DNA of 24,477 bases from Chloroflexota bacterium (GTDB lineage: Bacteria; Chloroflexota; Anaerolineae; Promineifilales; Promineifilaceae). The notes below the pieces were generated by a model that did not search any database, was not told where the DNA came from, and saw nothing but the letters and a program-made list of their open reading frames with translations. The stretch covers positions 1 through 24,477 of the forward strand of contig QQUD01000480.1 in assembly GCA_008501785.1 (NCBI GenBank). The letters run 5' to 3'. Below, piece by piece: positions 1 to 7,769 of the stretch (its first letter is position 1; the number at the start of each line of letters is the position of its first letter). Both the position numbers and the translations under genes were made by a program.

Positions 1-1046
1 TCATGTGCCTTTTGTGCTTGTGGATGAATATTGTGCAGTGGATAATCTTTAAAGACATATCTCACTGTGCCGTTGTCAATGTATTCTTGCAGTTGTGGCA
101 TTGTTTCCAGTACATGACGGCGACAGAAAGGGCATTGATAATCGGAATACTCAACAATTGTGATAGGTGCTGCCAACGATCCTTTAGCAGGTTCATCATT
201 TAGATGAATATCAACAGGACCAGCCGCTGGTGGAGGCGGATTGTTCGCTTCACGAGGTCGATATGCGTCTGCCAATTGCCCAGCTTTTGCCAGCTCAATG
301 GCATACTCGAAAAGCTCATAAGGTTGTGCGCCACTGATCGGATACCCATTGATGAAAAAAGCAGGGGTGCCTGTTACTTCCAGGCGTAATCCTTCGGATA
401 ATGTTTCTTGCACAACAGCTGCATTTTCATTAATTGCCAAACATTGTGTTATGTCTGGTAATCCAGCTTCTGGGAATACTGACAGAATTGCCGTGTCCAT
501 TGCTTCTAGATTATCAGCCTGGAAACGCTCCGCTTTAACAAAAAACAGATCGTGGGCTTGCCAGTAGGCTTCGGTCCCATCTGATTGACCGGCACAAAGT
601 GCTGCTTCATGCAAACGGTAGGCGAGGGGATGCAGGCTCTCAATCGGAAAATCTTTAAAAACGTAGTAAACCTGGCCGGTATCAATAAAGTTCGCCTTGA
701 TTTGCGGCATTGTTTCTAGCACATGACGGCGGCAGAAGGGGCATTGGTAATCTGAGTATTCCACAATAACAATGGGCGCGTTTGGATCTCCTAATGCTGT
801 CGATGGCCGATTTTCTGTTCCAGTGGGAAAGATGCCTGAAATGGTGTCATCATTTGATGTTTGCTGTAATTCATTTTTTTCAGGTTGACTTGTTGGTGTG
901 GGTAATCTTTCTATGGAATCGGAAGCAAAGGGTGCCGTTTGGACAGGATCAGTATCCTCAGTAGATTCTGGTGCGGCTGGACCGCAGCCAGCCGCAGTTA
1001 CCAAAATCAAGAATGTGGTTAATAGTAAGAATGTGATTTTTTTCAT
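1..1046 (-). CDS. Lipoprotein with two tandem DsbA-like thioredoxin domains (3' end beyond window)
   Basis: Open from ATG at 1046 to the left edge, about 348 codons, with no stop, so the C-terminus is missing. The N-terminus is a lipoprotein signal (KK, hydrophobic core, lipobox ending AAGC with Cys about residue 21), then a Thr/Pro/acidic linker. Domain 1 carries CPFC at residues 102-105 and the cis-proline motif TGTP at about 225-228. After a linker with four prolines, domain 2 repeats the same start, with CPFC at 305-308. The stretch VEYSDYQCPFCRRHVLETMP is identical in both domains, although the DNA differs at about nine third codon positions. DsbA-family proteins make or shuffle disulfides outside the cytoplasm. 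The gene starts 11 bases after the stop of the thioredoxin-like lipoprotein gene, so the two form one transcript. Family is certain; whether it oxidises, isomerises or feeds a VKOR-type partner is not visible. Confidence 0.9.
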   Translation of the reverse strand, partial: MKKITFLLLTTFLILVTAAGCGPAAPESTEDTDPVQTAPFASDSIERLPTPTSQPEKNELQQTSNDDTISGIFPTGTENRPSTALGDPNAPIVIVEYSDYQCPFCRRHVLETMPQIKANFIDTGQVYYVFKDFPIESLHPLAYRLHEAALCAGQSDGTEAYWQAHDLFFVKAERFQADNLEAMDTAILSVFPEAGLPDITQCLAINENAAVVQETLSEGLRLEVTGTPAFFINGYPISGAQPYELFEYAIELAKAGQLADAYRPREANNPPPPAAGPVDIHLNDEPAKGSLAAPITIVEYSDYQCPFCRRHVLETMPQLQEYIDNGTVRYVFKDYPLHNIHPQAQKAH

Positions 1047-1057
1047 CAGTATTCATC

Positions 1058-1438
1058 CTACGGCGTAATTTGGTCTAAATAGGTGCGAAGGTTAACGGCC
1101 GTTTCCGCCCCAAACACGTCTTGAACCATCACCCCATCCGCATCCAAAATAGCAACCGAGGGATGACCTCGTAATCCATAACTTTGCTGGACGCGTTCGT
1201 TTTCAGGAATTTCTACGTTTAGGCGTACAAAATTAACCTGTTCGCCATATTCAGCCTCTAACCCATCCACGATGGGTGCAAATTGTTGTCAAGGCACTCA
1301 GTTTTCGGTGTAAAACAGCACAAAAGCCGGGCCAGCAATTTCAGTGTCAGCGTTGTTTTGGCTGTTATTATTCGTGACACATGAAGTCACAATGAGAGTC
1401 ACTAAAGCAGCGATAACAATTTTTAAAGACTTTTTCAT
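1058..1438 (-). CDS. Thioredoxin-like lipoprotein with a putative UxxU (double selenocysteine) active site
   Basis: The frame from ATG 1438 to TAG 1058 is 127 codons, interrupted only by TGA at 1298-1300 (residue 47) and TGA at 1289-1291 (residue 50). A conventional gene caller keeps only the part downstream. Residues 1-20 are a lipoprotein signal (lipobox VTSC, Cys20). Residues 36-46 read GPAFVLFYTEN, the thioredoxin beta strand before the active site. Then come TGA-Val-Pro-TGA-Gln-Gln, so both TGAs occupy the two CxxC cysteines. A normal thioredoxin-fold C-terminal half follows (LNVEIPEN, cis-Pro93 in RGHPSV, LDADG). AAGGGG precedes the ATG. A 7-bp stem-loop follows at selenocysteine-insertion distance. 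I infer a selenoprotein with UxxU; a pseudogene or double sequencing error is the alternative. It lies between the DUF3105 gene and the tandem-DsbA gene in the same operon, which suggests an extracytoplasmic thiol/selenol redox role. No selA, selB, selC or selD lies in the window. Confidence 0.75.
1261..1277 (-). promoter_or_regulatory. Candidate bacterial SECIS stem-loop
   Basis: In the mRNA sense (minus strand) the sequence forms a perfect 7-bp stem ACCCATC/GATGGGT with a GTG triloop, inside the coding region. The loop begins 18 bases after the second TGA and 27 bases after the first. Both distances fall within the 16-37 base window usually given for bacterial SECIS elements, and the first loop base is G, as the family consensus requires. 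One element could therefore serve both codons. No bulged U like that of the E. coli fdhF element is obvious, so SelB recognition remains an inference. Confidence 0.6.
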
Positions 1439-1453
1439 TGCAATCAAACCCCT

Positions 1454-2062
1454 TTATTCAATAGGTATACCAACACCGTTTGCACAAGATGCACCCCGTT
1501 CTGGTGTTGTCGGCCCTTGCAGATATTGATCGATAAAATCAGGAATGCGCGTATCATCGACGGAATCTACTTCTAACTGAATTTCCCATGCTGTTAATAC
1601 AACTGGACTCTGTAAATCCGGGTAAGGACTCAGTAACATATGGGATTCTCCACCAACCAAATCTTGCAAAGTGGCAACATCTGCACCATCAAGATCGGGT
1701 TGATAAGCAATCCATACCGCGCCGTGTTCTAAAGAATGAACCGCATTGGCTGCATCAATCGGTTCATCATAAACGCCACAATTTTGCCACACATCGCTGT
1801 GCAATCCACCAACGGGCGGCAGCTCTCCCTCATAGGTTTGCTCGTTATCATGACCGCGCGGCTGCCGCAGGAAGGTAACAATCCCTTCAATTGGTAATGG
1901 ACCGCGTAGGCTCAGGAAAAGCAAATAACCTAACCCGACAAGGCCCACTACGACAATGCCTAGAGGAACCCAAATGGTTAATAAACGCTTGCGTTTTTGA
2001 CGGGCGATCTCCTGACGTCTCTTCTCTTTTTTGCTTACTTTTGGCTTGGATTGTGATGTCAT
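1454..2062 (-). CDS. DUF3105 family membrane-anchored protein
   Basis: A 202-residue protein. A very basic N-terminus (about 1-27, KKEKRRQ...RQKRKR) precedes one membrane segment (about 29-51), then an extracytoplasmic domain. The domain shows the DUF3105 hallmarks: an N-terminal GLHSDVWQNCGVYDEPI stretch with a conserved Cys, then HSLEHGAVWIAY, and an SPYP segment. The two His and the Glu of HSLEHG look like metal ligands or a catalytic site, but no activity is established for the family that I can name. The gene lies 22 bases after the cytochrome c gene and 15 bases before the thioredoxin-like gene, so it shares their operon. Start at ATG 2062; a weak purine-rich stretch precedes it. Family call is firm; function unknown. 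Confidence 0.85.
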   Translation of the reverse strand: MTSQSKPKVSKKEKRRQEIARQKRKRLLTIWVPLGIVVVGLVGLGYLLFLSLRGPLPIEGIVTFLRQPRGHDNEQTYEGELPPVGGLHSDVWQNCGVYDEPIDAANAVHSLEHGAVWIAYQPDLDGADVATLQDLVGGESHMLLSPYPDLQSPVVLTAWEIQLEVDSVDDTRIPDFIDQYLQGPTTPERGASCANGVGIPIE

Positions 2063-2084: not shown

Positions 2085-2588
2085 TTATTCGGATGCGCGA
2101 GCCTGTTCTCGTATGGTGGCTTCCCGTTGCAGTTGGCGAACGTCGTTGGGCCAGGTGCTTTTGATGAAGGTAAGAACGGCCGTTATCTCCCCATCTGTCA
2201 ACAACTCACCAAACGCAGGCATTGCGCTGGTGCCACCAATATTCATCTTGTTCAGCCGTGCGCCGCCCAACACAATTGAATTGACGAGCGTTGGATCACC
2301 ATGATGCCAGGTGTGCCCACTTTCATCGTGCGGTGGGGAGCGGAAAGAGCCATCCTCATTTTGCTGCTTCCAATTGGCCTCCCCTTCCAGATTGACACCG
2401 TGACACGCAGCGCAGTTGGCTGCGTAAACCGTTTTACCCAATGCAATCTCGTCTGCGGATGTCACAGGCATTATTTCTGCTTGACCTGATCCACCAGATT
2501 GAATTGTTGTTGATTCGGCGCTTAAAGTTGATTGGCAGGCTACCAATCCCCATGACAAAATAATCAAAAGTAGTAAAAAACGCTGCAT
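2085..2588 (-). CDS. Monohaem cytochrome c lipoprotein
   Basis: The start is placed at ATG 2588, not further upstream, because residues 1-18 then form a clean lipoprotein signal ending LVAC (Cys18) and AAGAGA lies just upstream. The protein is 167 residues. The haem motif is CAACH at 59-63 (Cys59, Cys62, His63), and the likely axial Met is Met122 in GGTSAMPAFGELL. Several His residues sit between them (H86, H91, H94, H95). This is a small class I cytochrome c tethered to the outer face of the membrane. It is the first gene of the cytochrome c, DUF3105, thioredoxin-like, tandem-DsbA cluster and may pass electrons to or from these redox proteins or a terminal oxidase. Partner is inferred only from position. 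Confidence 0.88.
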   Translation of the reverse strand: MQRFLLLLIILSWGLVACQSTLSAESTTIQSGGSGQAEIMPVTSADEIALGKTVYAANCAACHGVNLEGEANWKQQNEDGSFRSPPHDESGHTWHHGDPTLVNSIVLGGARLNKMNIGGTSAMPAFGELLTDGEITAVLTFIKSTWPNDVRQLQREATIREQARASE

Positions 2589-2698
2589 AAAATCTCTTTT
2601 TTCGGGAAATATCGTTTGTAGAGTAATAGTAGAGGAAGATGAATCAGGAGAACAGGGCGGTTTGGCGTATGCAAAACAGGCCATTTGGCGGGTGTCTT

Positions 2699-2775
2699 CA
2701 GTAAATGGTAATCAGTGAACGATAATCGGTTTACTAAACACCGACTACCGTTCATCGAATACAGATTACCGAAAC
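2699..2775. repeat. Inverted array of degenerate heptanucleotides (array A)
   Basis: Eleven consecutive 7-base units keep strict phase from 2699 to 2775. Units in the left part look like CAGTAAA or CAGTGAA; units in the right part look like their complement family (CCGTTCA, CCGACTA, CAGATTA), so the array is inverted about a centre near 2734. The right end covers the stop codon of the copper ATPase gene (2766-2768). It shares unit type and architecture with the arrays at 12371-12447 and 19776-19866. A function in mRNA 3' end structure or termination is possible but not shown. Confidence 0.65.
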
Positions 2776-4892
2776 GACAATCGCCGTAAAGTTTGAGCGT
2801 TAATTGCAACGATGATCGTACTAATCGACATCACCAATGCGCCAATCGCTGGGGGCATATCAAATCCGAGCGGAGCCAAGACGCCTGCGGCCAATGGAAT
2901 GGCAATGATATTATAGCCAGCCGCCCACCAGATGTTTTGCACCATTTTGCGCTGACTGACTTTACTCAACTTGATAATTTTCACCACGTCTAGCGGATTG
3001 CTTTGCACCAGAATCAGTCCAGCCGATTCTACTGCCACATCTGTACCGCTGCCGATTGCAATGCCAATATCTGCACGGGTCAGAGCTGGGGCATCATTGA
3101 CGCCATCACCAACCATTGCTACTTTTTTGCCTTGCGCTTGCAGTTCCATCACCTTTTTATCTTTATCTTCTGGCAGCACTTCGGCAAAGTAACGGTCAAT
3201 GCCCAATTCTTCAGACACGGCTTTCGCTACATCCTTGCTGTCACCGGTGAGCATGGCAACTTCAATTCCCATCTCATGCAGCTTTTCTACCGCAATTCGG
3301 CTTTCTTCTCGAATCACATCAGCTAATGCAAAAGCAGCAATTACCTGCGATTCACGCACCAGATAGATAACAGCTTGCCCTTTGGCTCCGGATTCCTGAC
3401 TAAATTGAGAAATGTGGTCAGGCAATGCAGTTTCAAGATACCCCAACAAACGAGGACCACCCATAAAAACAGCTTGCCCATTGTGATTGGCCTGCACGCC
3501 GCGCCCTTTTAGTGCTGTAAATGTTGTGATCGTCGGCAATGTCAGCGATTTTTCCATCGCTGCTTCACGAATGGCGCGGGCGATGATGTGTTCAGAATCA
3601 CCCTCAACGGCTGCTGCCAATGCCAATGCCTCATCATCGGAAACACCATCTGCCGTAATAGTTCCTACGACACCCTGTTCACCTTTGGTGAGCGTGCCGG
3701 TTTTGTCAAAAATAATCGTATTCAGTTCACGAGCTGATTCCAATGCCAGCCGGTCCCGCACCAGAATGCCGTTGCTGGCTGATAATGATGTGGAAATGGC
3801 AACAACCAATGGTACGGCCAATCCCAATGCATGAGGACATGCGATAACCAATACCGTTACTACACGTTTGAGTACGTCGATATTGAAACCAGTTGCAATA
3901 ATCCAGAGCAGTGCTGTCAGGGCAGCGGCACCAAGTGCCGCATAAAAGAGGTATGCAGCAGCTTTGTCTGCTAACAGTTGGGTGTTCGACTTGCTTTCCT
4001 GGGCGTCCCGCACTAGCCGCATGATGCCGGAAAGGGCGGTGTCGTCGCCAACGGCCGTTACCACCACCCGCAAACTGCCACTCCCATCATTCACTGTGCC
4101 ACCAATCACCGGCCCCCCTGGTTTTTTCTTCACCGGCTTCGACTCGCCAGTAATCATCGCTTCATTTACATCGGATGTGCCGTCAAACACCTCGCCGTCT
4201 GCGGGAATGGCTGCGCCGGGTCGTACCAGCACCTTGTCGCCAGCTTTGAGTTCGGCAGATCGAATTTGAGTGGTTGAGCCATTTTCATTGATGCGTTCGG
4301 CTGTGTCAGGCATCAGTTTCGCCAGTTCATCCAATGCGCCTGATGCCTGACGCACGCTGCGCATCTCCATCCCATGGCCCAGCAGCATCACGACCATCAG
4401 CGTCACCCGTTCCCAAAAGAAGCTTTCGCCCACATCACAAATGATGGTAGCCATGCTGTAAATAAATGCGACAGAGATTGCCAGTGAAATCAGCGTCATC
4501 ATGCCAGGTTGGCGTCCGCGCAGCTCCCAGGTTGCCATTTGCAAAAATGGCAGCCCACCGTAAACAAATACAACAACTGACAAAACTGGCGTAATCCAGG
4601 TACTGCCAGGAAACTGGGGCGCACTGTAGCTTAACCAGTTTTGAATGGCCGGACTGAAAATCAGCACGGGAATTGTAAGGAAAAAGGATACCCAAAAGCG
4701 GTTGCGAAACATGATTTCGTGACCTAAATGGCTGCCATGTCCGGCATGGTTGTCATGATCATCATGGCTACCATGGCCTGTATGATCTTCATCATGTTGG
4801 TGCATCGCGTGGTCGTTATGAGTAGTGGTGGCTTGCATAGAAATATTGGCATCATGGCCTGCATGATGCTCGTGAGCCGTATGTTCTTTCAT
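2766..4892 (-). CDS. copB: P1B-type copper/silver-transporting ATPase, CopB-like
   Basis: A full-length 708-residue protein. Residues 1-60 are His-rich (HEHH, HDDHDNH and similar) and replace the Cys-based HMA domain of CopA-type pumps. Membrane segments follow at about 66-86, 98-119, 130-150, 157-172, 312-333 and 340-370. The metal-site motif CPH (352-354) marks the CopB (P1B-3) class. Catalytic landmarks are TGES (248-251), the phosphorylated Asp396 in DKTGTLT and GDGVNDAP (595-602). Two more membrane segments lie at the C-terminus. The usual SEHP motif of the nucleotide-binding domain reads SEHI here (about 433-436). It should export Cu or Ag from the cytoplasm using ATP. AAAGGA precedes the start, and it follows the unknown gene at 4905-5501 by 12 bases. 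The stop lies inside heptad array A. The gene symbol is by family resemblance. Confidence 0.93.
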
Positions 4893-6498: not shown

Positions 6499-7719
6499 TT
6501 AGAGTGACGCCGGAATGCCGAAAAGTTTTGCCCCAAGGTTCATTCCCAGTCGTGCAGAGTGTCGCCGCAATCCTTCATTTAGCCAGTATTGCTCGAAGGC
6601 TACTTTGCCCCAATGCCACAGCTTGCCTGAGCGCGGCAAAGGTACGAGAGGGTCCGGCTCGGCATAGAAATGACCACTGGCAAAAGCGGCTGAACCACTC
6701 CCAGTTTCGAGCCAGCAATAGCCGACGCCATCAAACTGGGCCTGAGCAGCTTCTCCTCGGATGTCGGCGATGATACGGGCAGCAACGGTTTCGCCCTCGC
6801 CATGCGCAAAAACACCCGCCTTGGGGAGAGGTTTGCCGTTGGCCAGGGTAACGGCCGTTACATCACCGATAGCATATACGTTTTCAAAACGCGTGGACAG
6901 AGTGTTTTTATCCACCGATATCCAACCATTTTCATTAGCCAGCGGTGATTCCTTGACAGCTCGCGGTGGGCGATGCGGCGGCACACCTGCCAGAAAATCA
7001 AAAGATTCGTGACGGCCCTCTTTGAAGACCAATTCCTTTGCTTCCGGATCAATGTGGGTCAGATTCAGCTCTGGATTGAAGATAATTCCCTTCGTTTCCA
7101 ACATCTCCACTACCGCCTGACCCATAGCCGGTCCGGCCACTCCCATTGGAGCCGATTCCGGCGTATAAACTACCAGCTCGATTTGATCTCGACTTCTGTG
7201 TCTCCGAAAATGGTCATCCAGCAGCAGTGCTGTCTCGTAAGGAGCTGCCGGACATTTATAGGGCACGGCCGAAACTAAAACGGCTACACGACCACGTTGG
7301 AAGCCTTGTAACGCCGCCCAGAGTTTAGTCGCCCCCTCCAAATCGAAGGGAGTATAGGCAGACTCAGAGAAACCGGGCATGGAACCAGGGGCCAGATCAG
7401 CACCAAGAGCAAGTACGAGGTAATCGTAAGCCAATGTTTCTTCACTTGTATATACCAGGTTGCGGTCAGGATCAATCGTCTGTATCTCAGCTTGCACTAC
7501 CTCAATCCCAGGCGTCAATAAGCGCTGCAATGCTTTTGTAATCTGCTTCGGCTGCCGCCAGCCAACCATCACCCACAGCAGAGACGGCGTGAAGACATAT
7601 TCAGCCTGTTTGTCAATTACCACGATGCGATGTTTTGATGCCAGGTGCCGATGTAAAGCGTTGGCTGTCACAATGCCGCCCACACCACCGCCCAGAATTA
7701 GAATAGTTTTCTTGTTCAT
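6499..7719 (-). CDS. sqr: FAD-dependent oxidoreductase, sulfide:quinone oxidoreductase-like
   Basis: The start is set at ATG 7719 because GGAGAG lies just upstream and residues 5-15 then form the FAD-binding strand and loop ILILGGGVGGI. The protein is 406 residues. FAD motifs continue with LVLALGADLAP (about 101-111) and the late VYAIGDVTAV (281-290). Cys156 in the motif YKCPAAPYE and Cys335 in GYCWLETG are placed like the redox cysteines of sulfide:quinone oxidoreductases. PLPKAGVFAHGEGE and the C-terminal amphipathic stretch (FEQYWLNEGLRR) fit membrane-surface quinone reduction. The reaction would be sulfide to polysulfide with electrons to quinone. A related flavocytochrome or NDH-2-like activity cannot be excluded. 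The truncated cytochrome c gene lies just upstream (7826-8092), separated by a hairpin. Confidence 0.8.
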   Translation of the reverse strand: MNKKTILILGGGVGGIVTANALHRHLASKHRIVVIDKQAEYVFTPSLLWVMVGWRQPKQITKALQRLLTPGIEVVQAEIQTIDPDRNLVYTSEETLAYDYLVLALGADLAPGSMPGFSESAYTPFDLEGATKLWAALQGFQRGRVAVLVSAVPYKCPAAPYETALLLDDHFRRHRSRDQIELVVYTPESAPMGVAGPAMGQAVVEMLETKGIIFNPELNLTHIDPEAKELVFKEGRHESFDFLAGVPPHRPPRAVKESPLANENGWISVDKNTLSTRFENVYAIGDVTAVTLANGKPLPKAGVFAHGEGETVAARIIADIRGEAAQAQFDGVGYCWLETGSGSAAFASGHFYAEPDPLVPLPRSGKLWHWGKVAFEQYWLNEGLRRHSARLGMNLGAKLFGIPASL

Positions 7720-7769
7720 CGTATCTCTCCTTTCGCTTGTTTCATTCAAGATGAAAGCAAACAAAGGCT

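Follow-up and report, generated by a model that had tools for sequence, protein, structure and literature searches.

A predicted double-selenocysteine thioredoxin-like lipoprotein family in Chloroflexota

Selenocysteine (Sec, U) is known from thioredoxins, where it takes the first position of the active site (UxxC), and pairs of Sec with UxxU spacing are known from other folds. Table 1 of an inventory from 2026, which covers 119 families of prokaryotic selenoproteins, lists the thioredoxin family PF00085 as UxxC only (PMC13188914). UxxU spacing is found in SelL, in which one selenocysteine insertion sequence (SECIS) serves both positions, and in further proteins (PMC13188914 Table 1, PMC2398784, PMC3316567, PMC7539508), but as far as these sources describe them they differ in kind, being peroxiredoxin-like, metal-binding (NF041115), FmdB or, in some cases, SELENOW proteins (SELENOW: PMC7539508). 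Here we describe a gene on a 24,477-base stretch of Chloroflexota DNA (hereafter the window) for a thioredoxin-like lipoprotein in which in-frame TGAs stand where the two active-site cysteines would be encoded. Compared with the UxxC proteins of PF00085, as given in Table 1 of PMC13188914, it shares the thioredoxin fold, a predicted Sec at the first site and a predicted SECIS after the UGA, and it differs in having a second predicted Sec, a lipoprotein signal, a non-acidic residue at the position of Asp26 and a histidine before the cis-proline. The gene and the elements within it are:

1058..1438, minus strand: UxxU thioredoxin-like lipoprotein gene, 126 codons and a TAG stop at 1058-1060 (read-through translation, Pfam match, predicted thioredoxin fold)
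1449..1455, minus strand: AAAGGGG, putative Shine-Dalgarno-like sequence, 10 nucleotides (nt) before the ATG (from sequence)
1379..1390, minus strand: lipobox VTS-C, residues 17-20 (from sequence)
1316..1318, minus strand: Leu41, in the place of thioredoxin's buried Asp26
1298..1300, minus strand: first TGA, residue 47, equivalent to thioredoxin Cys32, predicted Sec; TGA here in 55 UxxU and 29 UxxC sequences
1289..1291, minus strand: second TGA, residue 50, equivalent to thioredoxin Cys35, predicted Sec; TGA in 55 UxxU, TGC or TGT in 29 UxxC sequences
1261..1277, minus strand: hairpin ACCCATC-GTG-GATGGGT, 17 nt, 7 base pairs and a GTG loop; predicted SECIS, linked to Sec, covarying and above the synonymous-codon null
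1268..1270, minus strand: GTG forming the loop of the hairpin and doubling as the start of a truncated open reading frame of 70 residues (window 1058-1270)
1160..1165, minus strand: His92-Pro93, the histidine ahead of the cis-proline, invariant across an alignment of eight UxxU sequences (A4)

When TGA is read as a residue, the two TGAs are the sole interruptions of the frame from 1438 to 1058, and both occupy the CxxC position of thioredoxins. The active-site stretch reads FYTEN-U-VP-U-QQFAPIVDGLEAE and is followed by a normal thioredoxin C-terminal half. An earlier interpretation made from the letters alone (the sequence-only reading) had proposed a lipoprotein frame broken by two TGAs at the CxxC, with a stem-loop 18 and 27 bases downstream; the read-through translation agrees, the distances to the loop are 18 nt from the second TGA and 27 nt from the first, and the two-TGA frame with its hairpin is confirmed as real. 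Pfam Thioredoxin (PF00085) scores the protein at 44.2 bits, above its cut-off of 23.5, and the NCBIfam equivalog TIGR01068 (thioredoxin) at 49.6 bits, under its cut-off of 96.8. The predicted fold is that of a plain thioredoxin, and its structure neighbours, among the matches listed, are thioredoxins, thioredoxin fusions or complexes. A Sco chain is absent among these listed matches, which does not exclude Sco likeness; Pfam gave no match at E ≤ 0.001 to the SCO1/SenC or the peroxiredoxin-like AhpC-TSA domain.

A protein search for relatives gave 13 matches, P0001 and 12 products of 70-79 residues, among them the window's own 70-residue product P0002 (1058-1270, minus strand). P0001, from two short contigs of which the longest has 1,053 bases, is the window protein with WVPW at the active site, the TGAs having been called as Trp. 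The 12 short matches start at hairpin-encoded residues or slightly before, which would fit gene callers being unable to cross the TGAs. Scanning genome contigs yielded two loci, both TGA-xx-TGA (L001 in Caldilineae, L002 in Ardenticatenales). We then extended the search to 400 genomes of the phylum and, with a UxxU profile, to 396 genomes of the class of G002 (Chloroflexota). A script run on the window and the fetched loci distinguished 55 UxxU, 29 UxxC, 1 UxxS and 31 CxxC sequences; homologues with intact flanks, which the sequence-only reading had named as a check, exist in UxxU, UxxC and CxxC forms. The 55 UxxU sequences stem from the window plus 51 genomes, and 50 of these genomes belong to the 396 of the class; L144 was merged into L135, to which it is identical over 60 nt counted from the second TGA. 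For UxxC and CxxC the numbers represent samples, one-TGA and no-TGA matches having been fetched in part. Two weak rows are included: L020 (UxxC, 28 bits) and L103 (CxxC), the latter overlapping with a neighbour of Redoxin/AhpC type (L126:7271-7843).

In the tree, one branch holds 53 of the 55 UxxU sequences and none of the 61 non-UxxU rows placed. The UxxU genes are constant in length, carry invariant residues and are conserved in their C-terminal half, and a lipobox-like motif is present in 51 of the 55 (loose pattern; motif only). Two stops in a short gene might suggest a pseudogene or a sequencing error, as might the persistence of the gene in one genome, G684, without detectable sel genes. 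Both TGAs, however, recur in at least 50 of the 396 class genomes, in genes of unchanging length and with invariant residues; short of a general artefact, the comparative data refute this explanation, to which we assign practically no probability.

The sister UxxC thioredoxin-like proteins (L050-L063 and L155-L165, with FRFTUGTC and related types) are likely mis-annotated as well; most share the hairpin 20 nt from the UGA. L064 (G219:C1023) has TGA at the first site and Ser at the second, together with a perfect hairpin, and was counted apart as UxxS. In the genome concerned, G219, neither selA nor selD exceeds the cut-off and selB has no match at E ≤ 1e-50, which makes this reading of the TGA doubtful.

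The hairpin begins 11 nt past the second TGA and 20 nt past the first. As far as described in PMC8659212, the upper stem-loop of a bacterial SECIS likewise comprises 17 nt and lies 11 nt from the UGA. On neither strand of the window is there a second stem of seven perfect base pairs whose triloop starts with G. Folding of the single sequence was not significant (61 nt, z = −0.96, with an equal or better fold in 37 of 200 shuffles) and was dropped as proof. Scanning the window against Rfam at gathering scores gave no match, which is uninformative; the evidence for the hairpin is comparative. We compared a core of five pairs in codon register, without alignment gaps. All five pairs are standard in 50 of 55 UxxU and 25 of 29 UxxC sequences, and in 1 of 31 CxxC sequences. 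In 1000 draws of random synonymous codons, each keeping the protein, complete cores averaged 11.5 for UxxU (maximum 24) and 5.6 for UxxC (maximum 13). The observed cores exceed all 1000 shuffles, and the possibility that the encoded protein imposes such a hairpin by chance was thus rejected. Over UxxU and UxxC together, 95% of the cells are paired, versus 12-49% when the register is slid by 1-3 bases, and five of six pairs show changes on both sides, both counts being uncorrected for kinship. The sequence-only reading had related the stem-loop to bacterial SECIS elements and suggested a bSECIS predictor; the comparison across homologues, made instead, supports it, in that the hairpin goes with Sec and is all but missing from the Cys forms. 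The one CxxC lipoprotein with a perfect Sec-type core, L167, adjoins a UxxC sequence in the tree (99*) and is likely a Sec-to-Cys relic.

The UxxC relatives carry their hairpin in the identical place, 20 nt from their sole UGA. Both spacings between UGA and hairpin therefore appear usable, and one hairpin may be able to serve both UGAs. SelB acting on this single hairpin would recode both, and acquiring the second Sec would need one base change only, from TGC or TGT to TGA. Alternatively, one UGA alone could be decoded as Sec while the other terminates or is read otherwise, making the full-length protein a minor product. The single hairpin for two UGAs, the fact that UxxC relatives manage with one Sec and the generally expected inefficiency of serial double recoding would fit this. 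Yet both TGAs are present in all 53 members of the branch, where none of the rows placed carries Cys, and the conserved C-terminal half requires read-through of both; moreover SelL, as described in PMC3316567, inserts two Sec, two residues apart, with one SECIS. We regard single decoding as very unlikely.

A changed genetic code, with UGA decoded as Trp or Cys, might be suggested by the WxxW of some database gene calls (P0001, P0014-P0023). TGA is a normal stop, however: it terminates 18 of the 50 UxxU genes whose own stop was seen and 8 of the 17 window genes checked, and a changed code is therefore rejected. The aligned relatives with Cys, the link of the hairpin to Sec and the sel genes in nearly all genomes checked speak against it too, leaving it barely conceivable. 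The SepRS/SepCysS system of Chloroflexi was also considered as a source of Cys at UGA and rejected; the accessible part of PMC5424206 nowhere mentions UGA.

For the Sec machinery, no sel gene was found among the 20 window products scanned with Pfam, and a tRNA scan of the window gave none. The first seven UxxU genomes checked have selA and selD over the cut-off in all seven, selB over the cut-off in six and tRNA-Sec at the gathering score in six. Their selD genes (L074-L080) contain one in-frame TGA each, and for this reason SelD itself is likely a selenoprotein there. Over all 51 UxxU genomes, selA exceeds the cut-off in 46, selB in 41 and either of them in 48; these are genomes of relatives that carry the gene, whereas the sequence-only reading had asked for sel genes in the genome of the window itself. 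Two of the remaining three, G667 and G672, have a selD bearing an in-frame TGA, and G672 also has tRNA-Sec; the exception is G684. G700 has selA, selB, selD and tRNA-Sec, and its UxxU row, L134, is the nearest to the window in the tree.

Taken together, we strongly predict from these sequence comparisons that both UGAs are read as selenocysteine. Several observations weigh against this and against the role proposed below. G684 is near-complete (contig of 5.63 Mb) and has no selA, selB, selD or tRNA-Sec over the cut-off. Since selB is common in the phylum (over the cut-off in 307 of 400 genomes), its presence in 41 of 51 is no enrichment, and its co-occurrence does not discriminate. Five UxxU rows (L032, L087, L089, L091, L146) have a flawed hairpin core, and two (L151, L154) lie outside the UxxU branch. 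The first UGA is 20 nt from the hairpin, against the 11 nt of the bacterial pattern described in PMC8659212. Finally, 9 of 23 loci with flanking sequence lack the ATPase, cytochrome c and DsbA-like clusters considered below, so that any partner of the protein is a guess. The UxxU gene of G684 (L126, G684:C1:364800-378800) is intact and has the hairpin; recent loss, an assembly gap or a dead gene could each account for the lack of sel genes over the cut-off beside it.

The active site has changed along with the cysteines. Classical thioredoxins have a buried Asp26 with a lysine partner, and this pair is not found in the UxxU branch: the Asp26 position is never acidic (F, Y, M, L, V or W in 53 of 53), and that of the partner Lys57 is Arg in the window and mixed across the branch. 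The cis-proline opposite the active site is kept in 52 of 53, with one gap, and is preceded by His in 52 of 53, a residue rare there elsewhere. Among UxxC rows the Asp26 position is acidic in 25 of 29 and Gln precedes the cis-proline in 23 of 29; for CxxC rows both values are 5 of 10. The sequence-only reading, in taking both UGAs for Sec, is supported, but it undersold the case, since the UxxU proteins form a family with a changed active site.

We consider it highly probable that the gene encodes a lipid-anchored extracytoplasmic selenoprotein of thioredoxin fold, with both active-site cysteines replaced by predicted Sec (U-V-P-U). The Sec pair would alternate between diselenol and diselenide. 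The paper on SelL reportedly states a diselenide bond in its title. For a Grx peptide, PMC10096412 quotes −381 mV with Se-Se and −180 mV with S-S. With the selenols already ionised, a buried acid of the Asp26 type would be dispensable, and it is absent in the UxxU branch; the selenolates would be tuned by the invariant His that precedes the cis-proline. An extracytoplasmic diselenide thioredoxin is the likely product, and it may pass electrons or exchange thiols on the outside of the membrane with neighbours such as a DsbA-like protein, possibly serving copper and haem proteins. A broader proposal, to which we give slightly less than an even chance, is that in this Chloroflexota clade selenium has fully and stably replaced sulfur, with the double Sec fixed, the Asp lost and a new invariant His, yielding a cell-surface diselenide thioredoxin that works at a potential beyond that of disulfides or holds Cu(I) between two selenolates, and that is decoded by one hairpin for two UGAs 9 nt apart.

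The genes next to the thioredoxin in the window are:

2766..4892, minus strand: copper-type P-type ATPase gene (TIGR01511, 565.3 bits, cut-off 397)
2085..2684, minus strand: cytochrome c gene (Pfam, 44.6 bits)
1454..2062, minus strand: DUF3105 gene (150.6 bits), 15 bases upstream of the UxxU ATG
3..1046, minus strand: tandem DsbA-like gene (Thioredoxin_4, two stretches, Pfam 147.1 bits), cut by the window end, 11 bases after the UxxU stop

Read along the minus strand, the genes run from the copper-type ATPase through cytochrome c and DUF3105 to the UxxU thioredoxin and then the DsbA-like tandem protein; the placement between DUF3105 and DsbA genes had been noted from the sequence and was verified, with gaps of 15 and 11 bases. 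In the 23 flanked loci, the clusters of these neighbours recur 11 times for the ATPase, 10 for cytochrome c, 7 for the DsbA-like protein and 3 for DUF3105, all being lower bounds due to greedy choice of reading frames, with members assigned by sequence cluster and a Pfam check for part of them. YHS, HMA, DUF411, cation efflux, PCYCGC and DUF1573 proteins, and a cupredoxin-like one below the cut-off, are additional neighbours in single loci. The neighbourhood points to handling of copper and haem proteins outside the membrane.

The same surroundings would suit a protein whose double-Sec pair serves chiefly to bind Cu(I), His92 being a third ligand: a lipoprotein copper chaperone, Sco-like in its work and not by kinship. 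The ATPase of the window operon, with its cluster in 11 of 23 loci, and the YHS, HMA, DUF411 and cupredoxin-like neighbours would agree with this, as would the His that 52 of 53 branch members have beside the active site. The predicted fold, however, is that of a plain thioredoxin, SCO1/SenC is not among its Pfam matches at E ≤ 0.001, and the ATPase cluster is missing from 12 of the 23 loci; we judge copper binding as the main role unlikely and favour the diselenide-cycling thioredoxin.

Three features are new within these searches: a thioredoxin lipoprotein with two predicted Sec, an active site that has changed with them, and a bacterial layout of one hairpin for two UGAs. The literature searched on UxxU, two-Sec and Chloroflexota selenoproteins, which leaves most subscription journals outside its coverage, contained no UxxU thioredoxin in the parts accessible. 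The eight A4 members match no dedicated NCBIfam model (release 20.0, E ≤ 0.001), nor SelL-related or NF041115 models at that threshold. They also do not match NF041057, the DsbG-like Rcas_1661 thioredoxin-like (seleno)lipoprotein, which is a (seleno)lipoprotein by name as well but belongs to a different family, Thioredoxin_4; the DsbA-like gene at 3-1046 scores 172.8 bits with this model, below its cut-off of 190. Closer in build are the UxxC and CxxC lipoprotein thioredoxins of the phylum (for example L051, L061 and L034), which have the same architecture and one or no Sec. A fixed UxxU thioredoxin family would be a natural test case for diselenide function, set in a redox fold that is understood very well, and the matched UxxU, UxxC and CxxC sets, sharing one hairpin, would let one ask how a bacterial SECIS decodes two UGAs. 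Annotation loses such genes, as callers begin after the second TGA, some at the hairpin-loop GTG, or read WxxW. P0001 and P0014-P0023 are UxxU genes translated as WxxW by code-4 gene calls, found beside many calls of 70-84 residues that start past the second TGA.

Two further genes have links to known selenoprotein families. The product of window 6499-7764 resembles sulfide:quinone reductases and is related to NF049943, a selenoprotein subtype, but scores 248.5 bits against a cut-off of 525. At L129:7331-9913, near a UxxU gene, lies a copper-type ATPase whose N-terminal part matches NF041115 (101.7 bits, cut-off 95).
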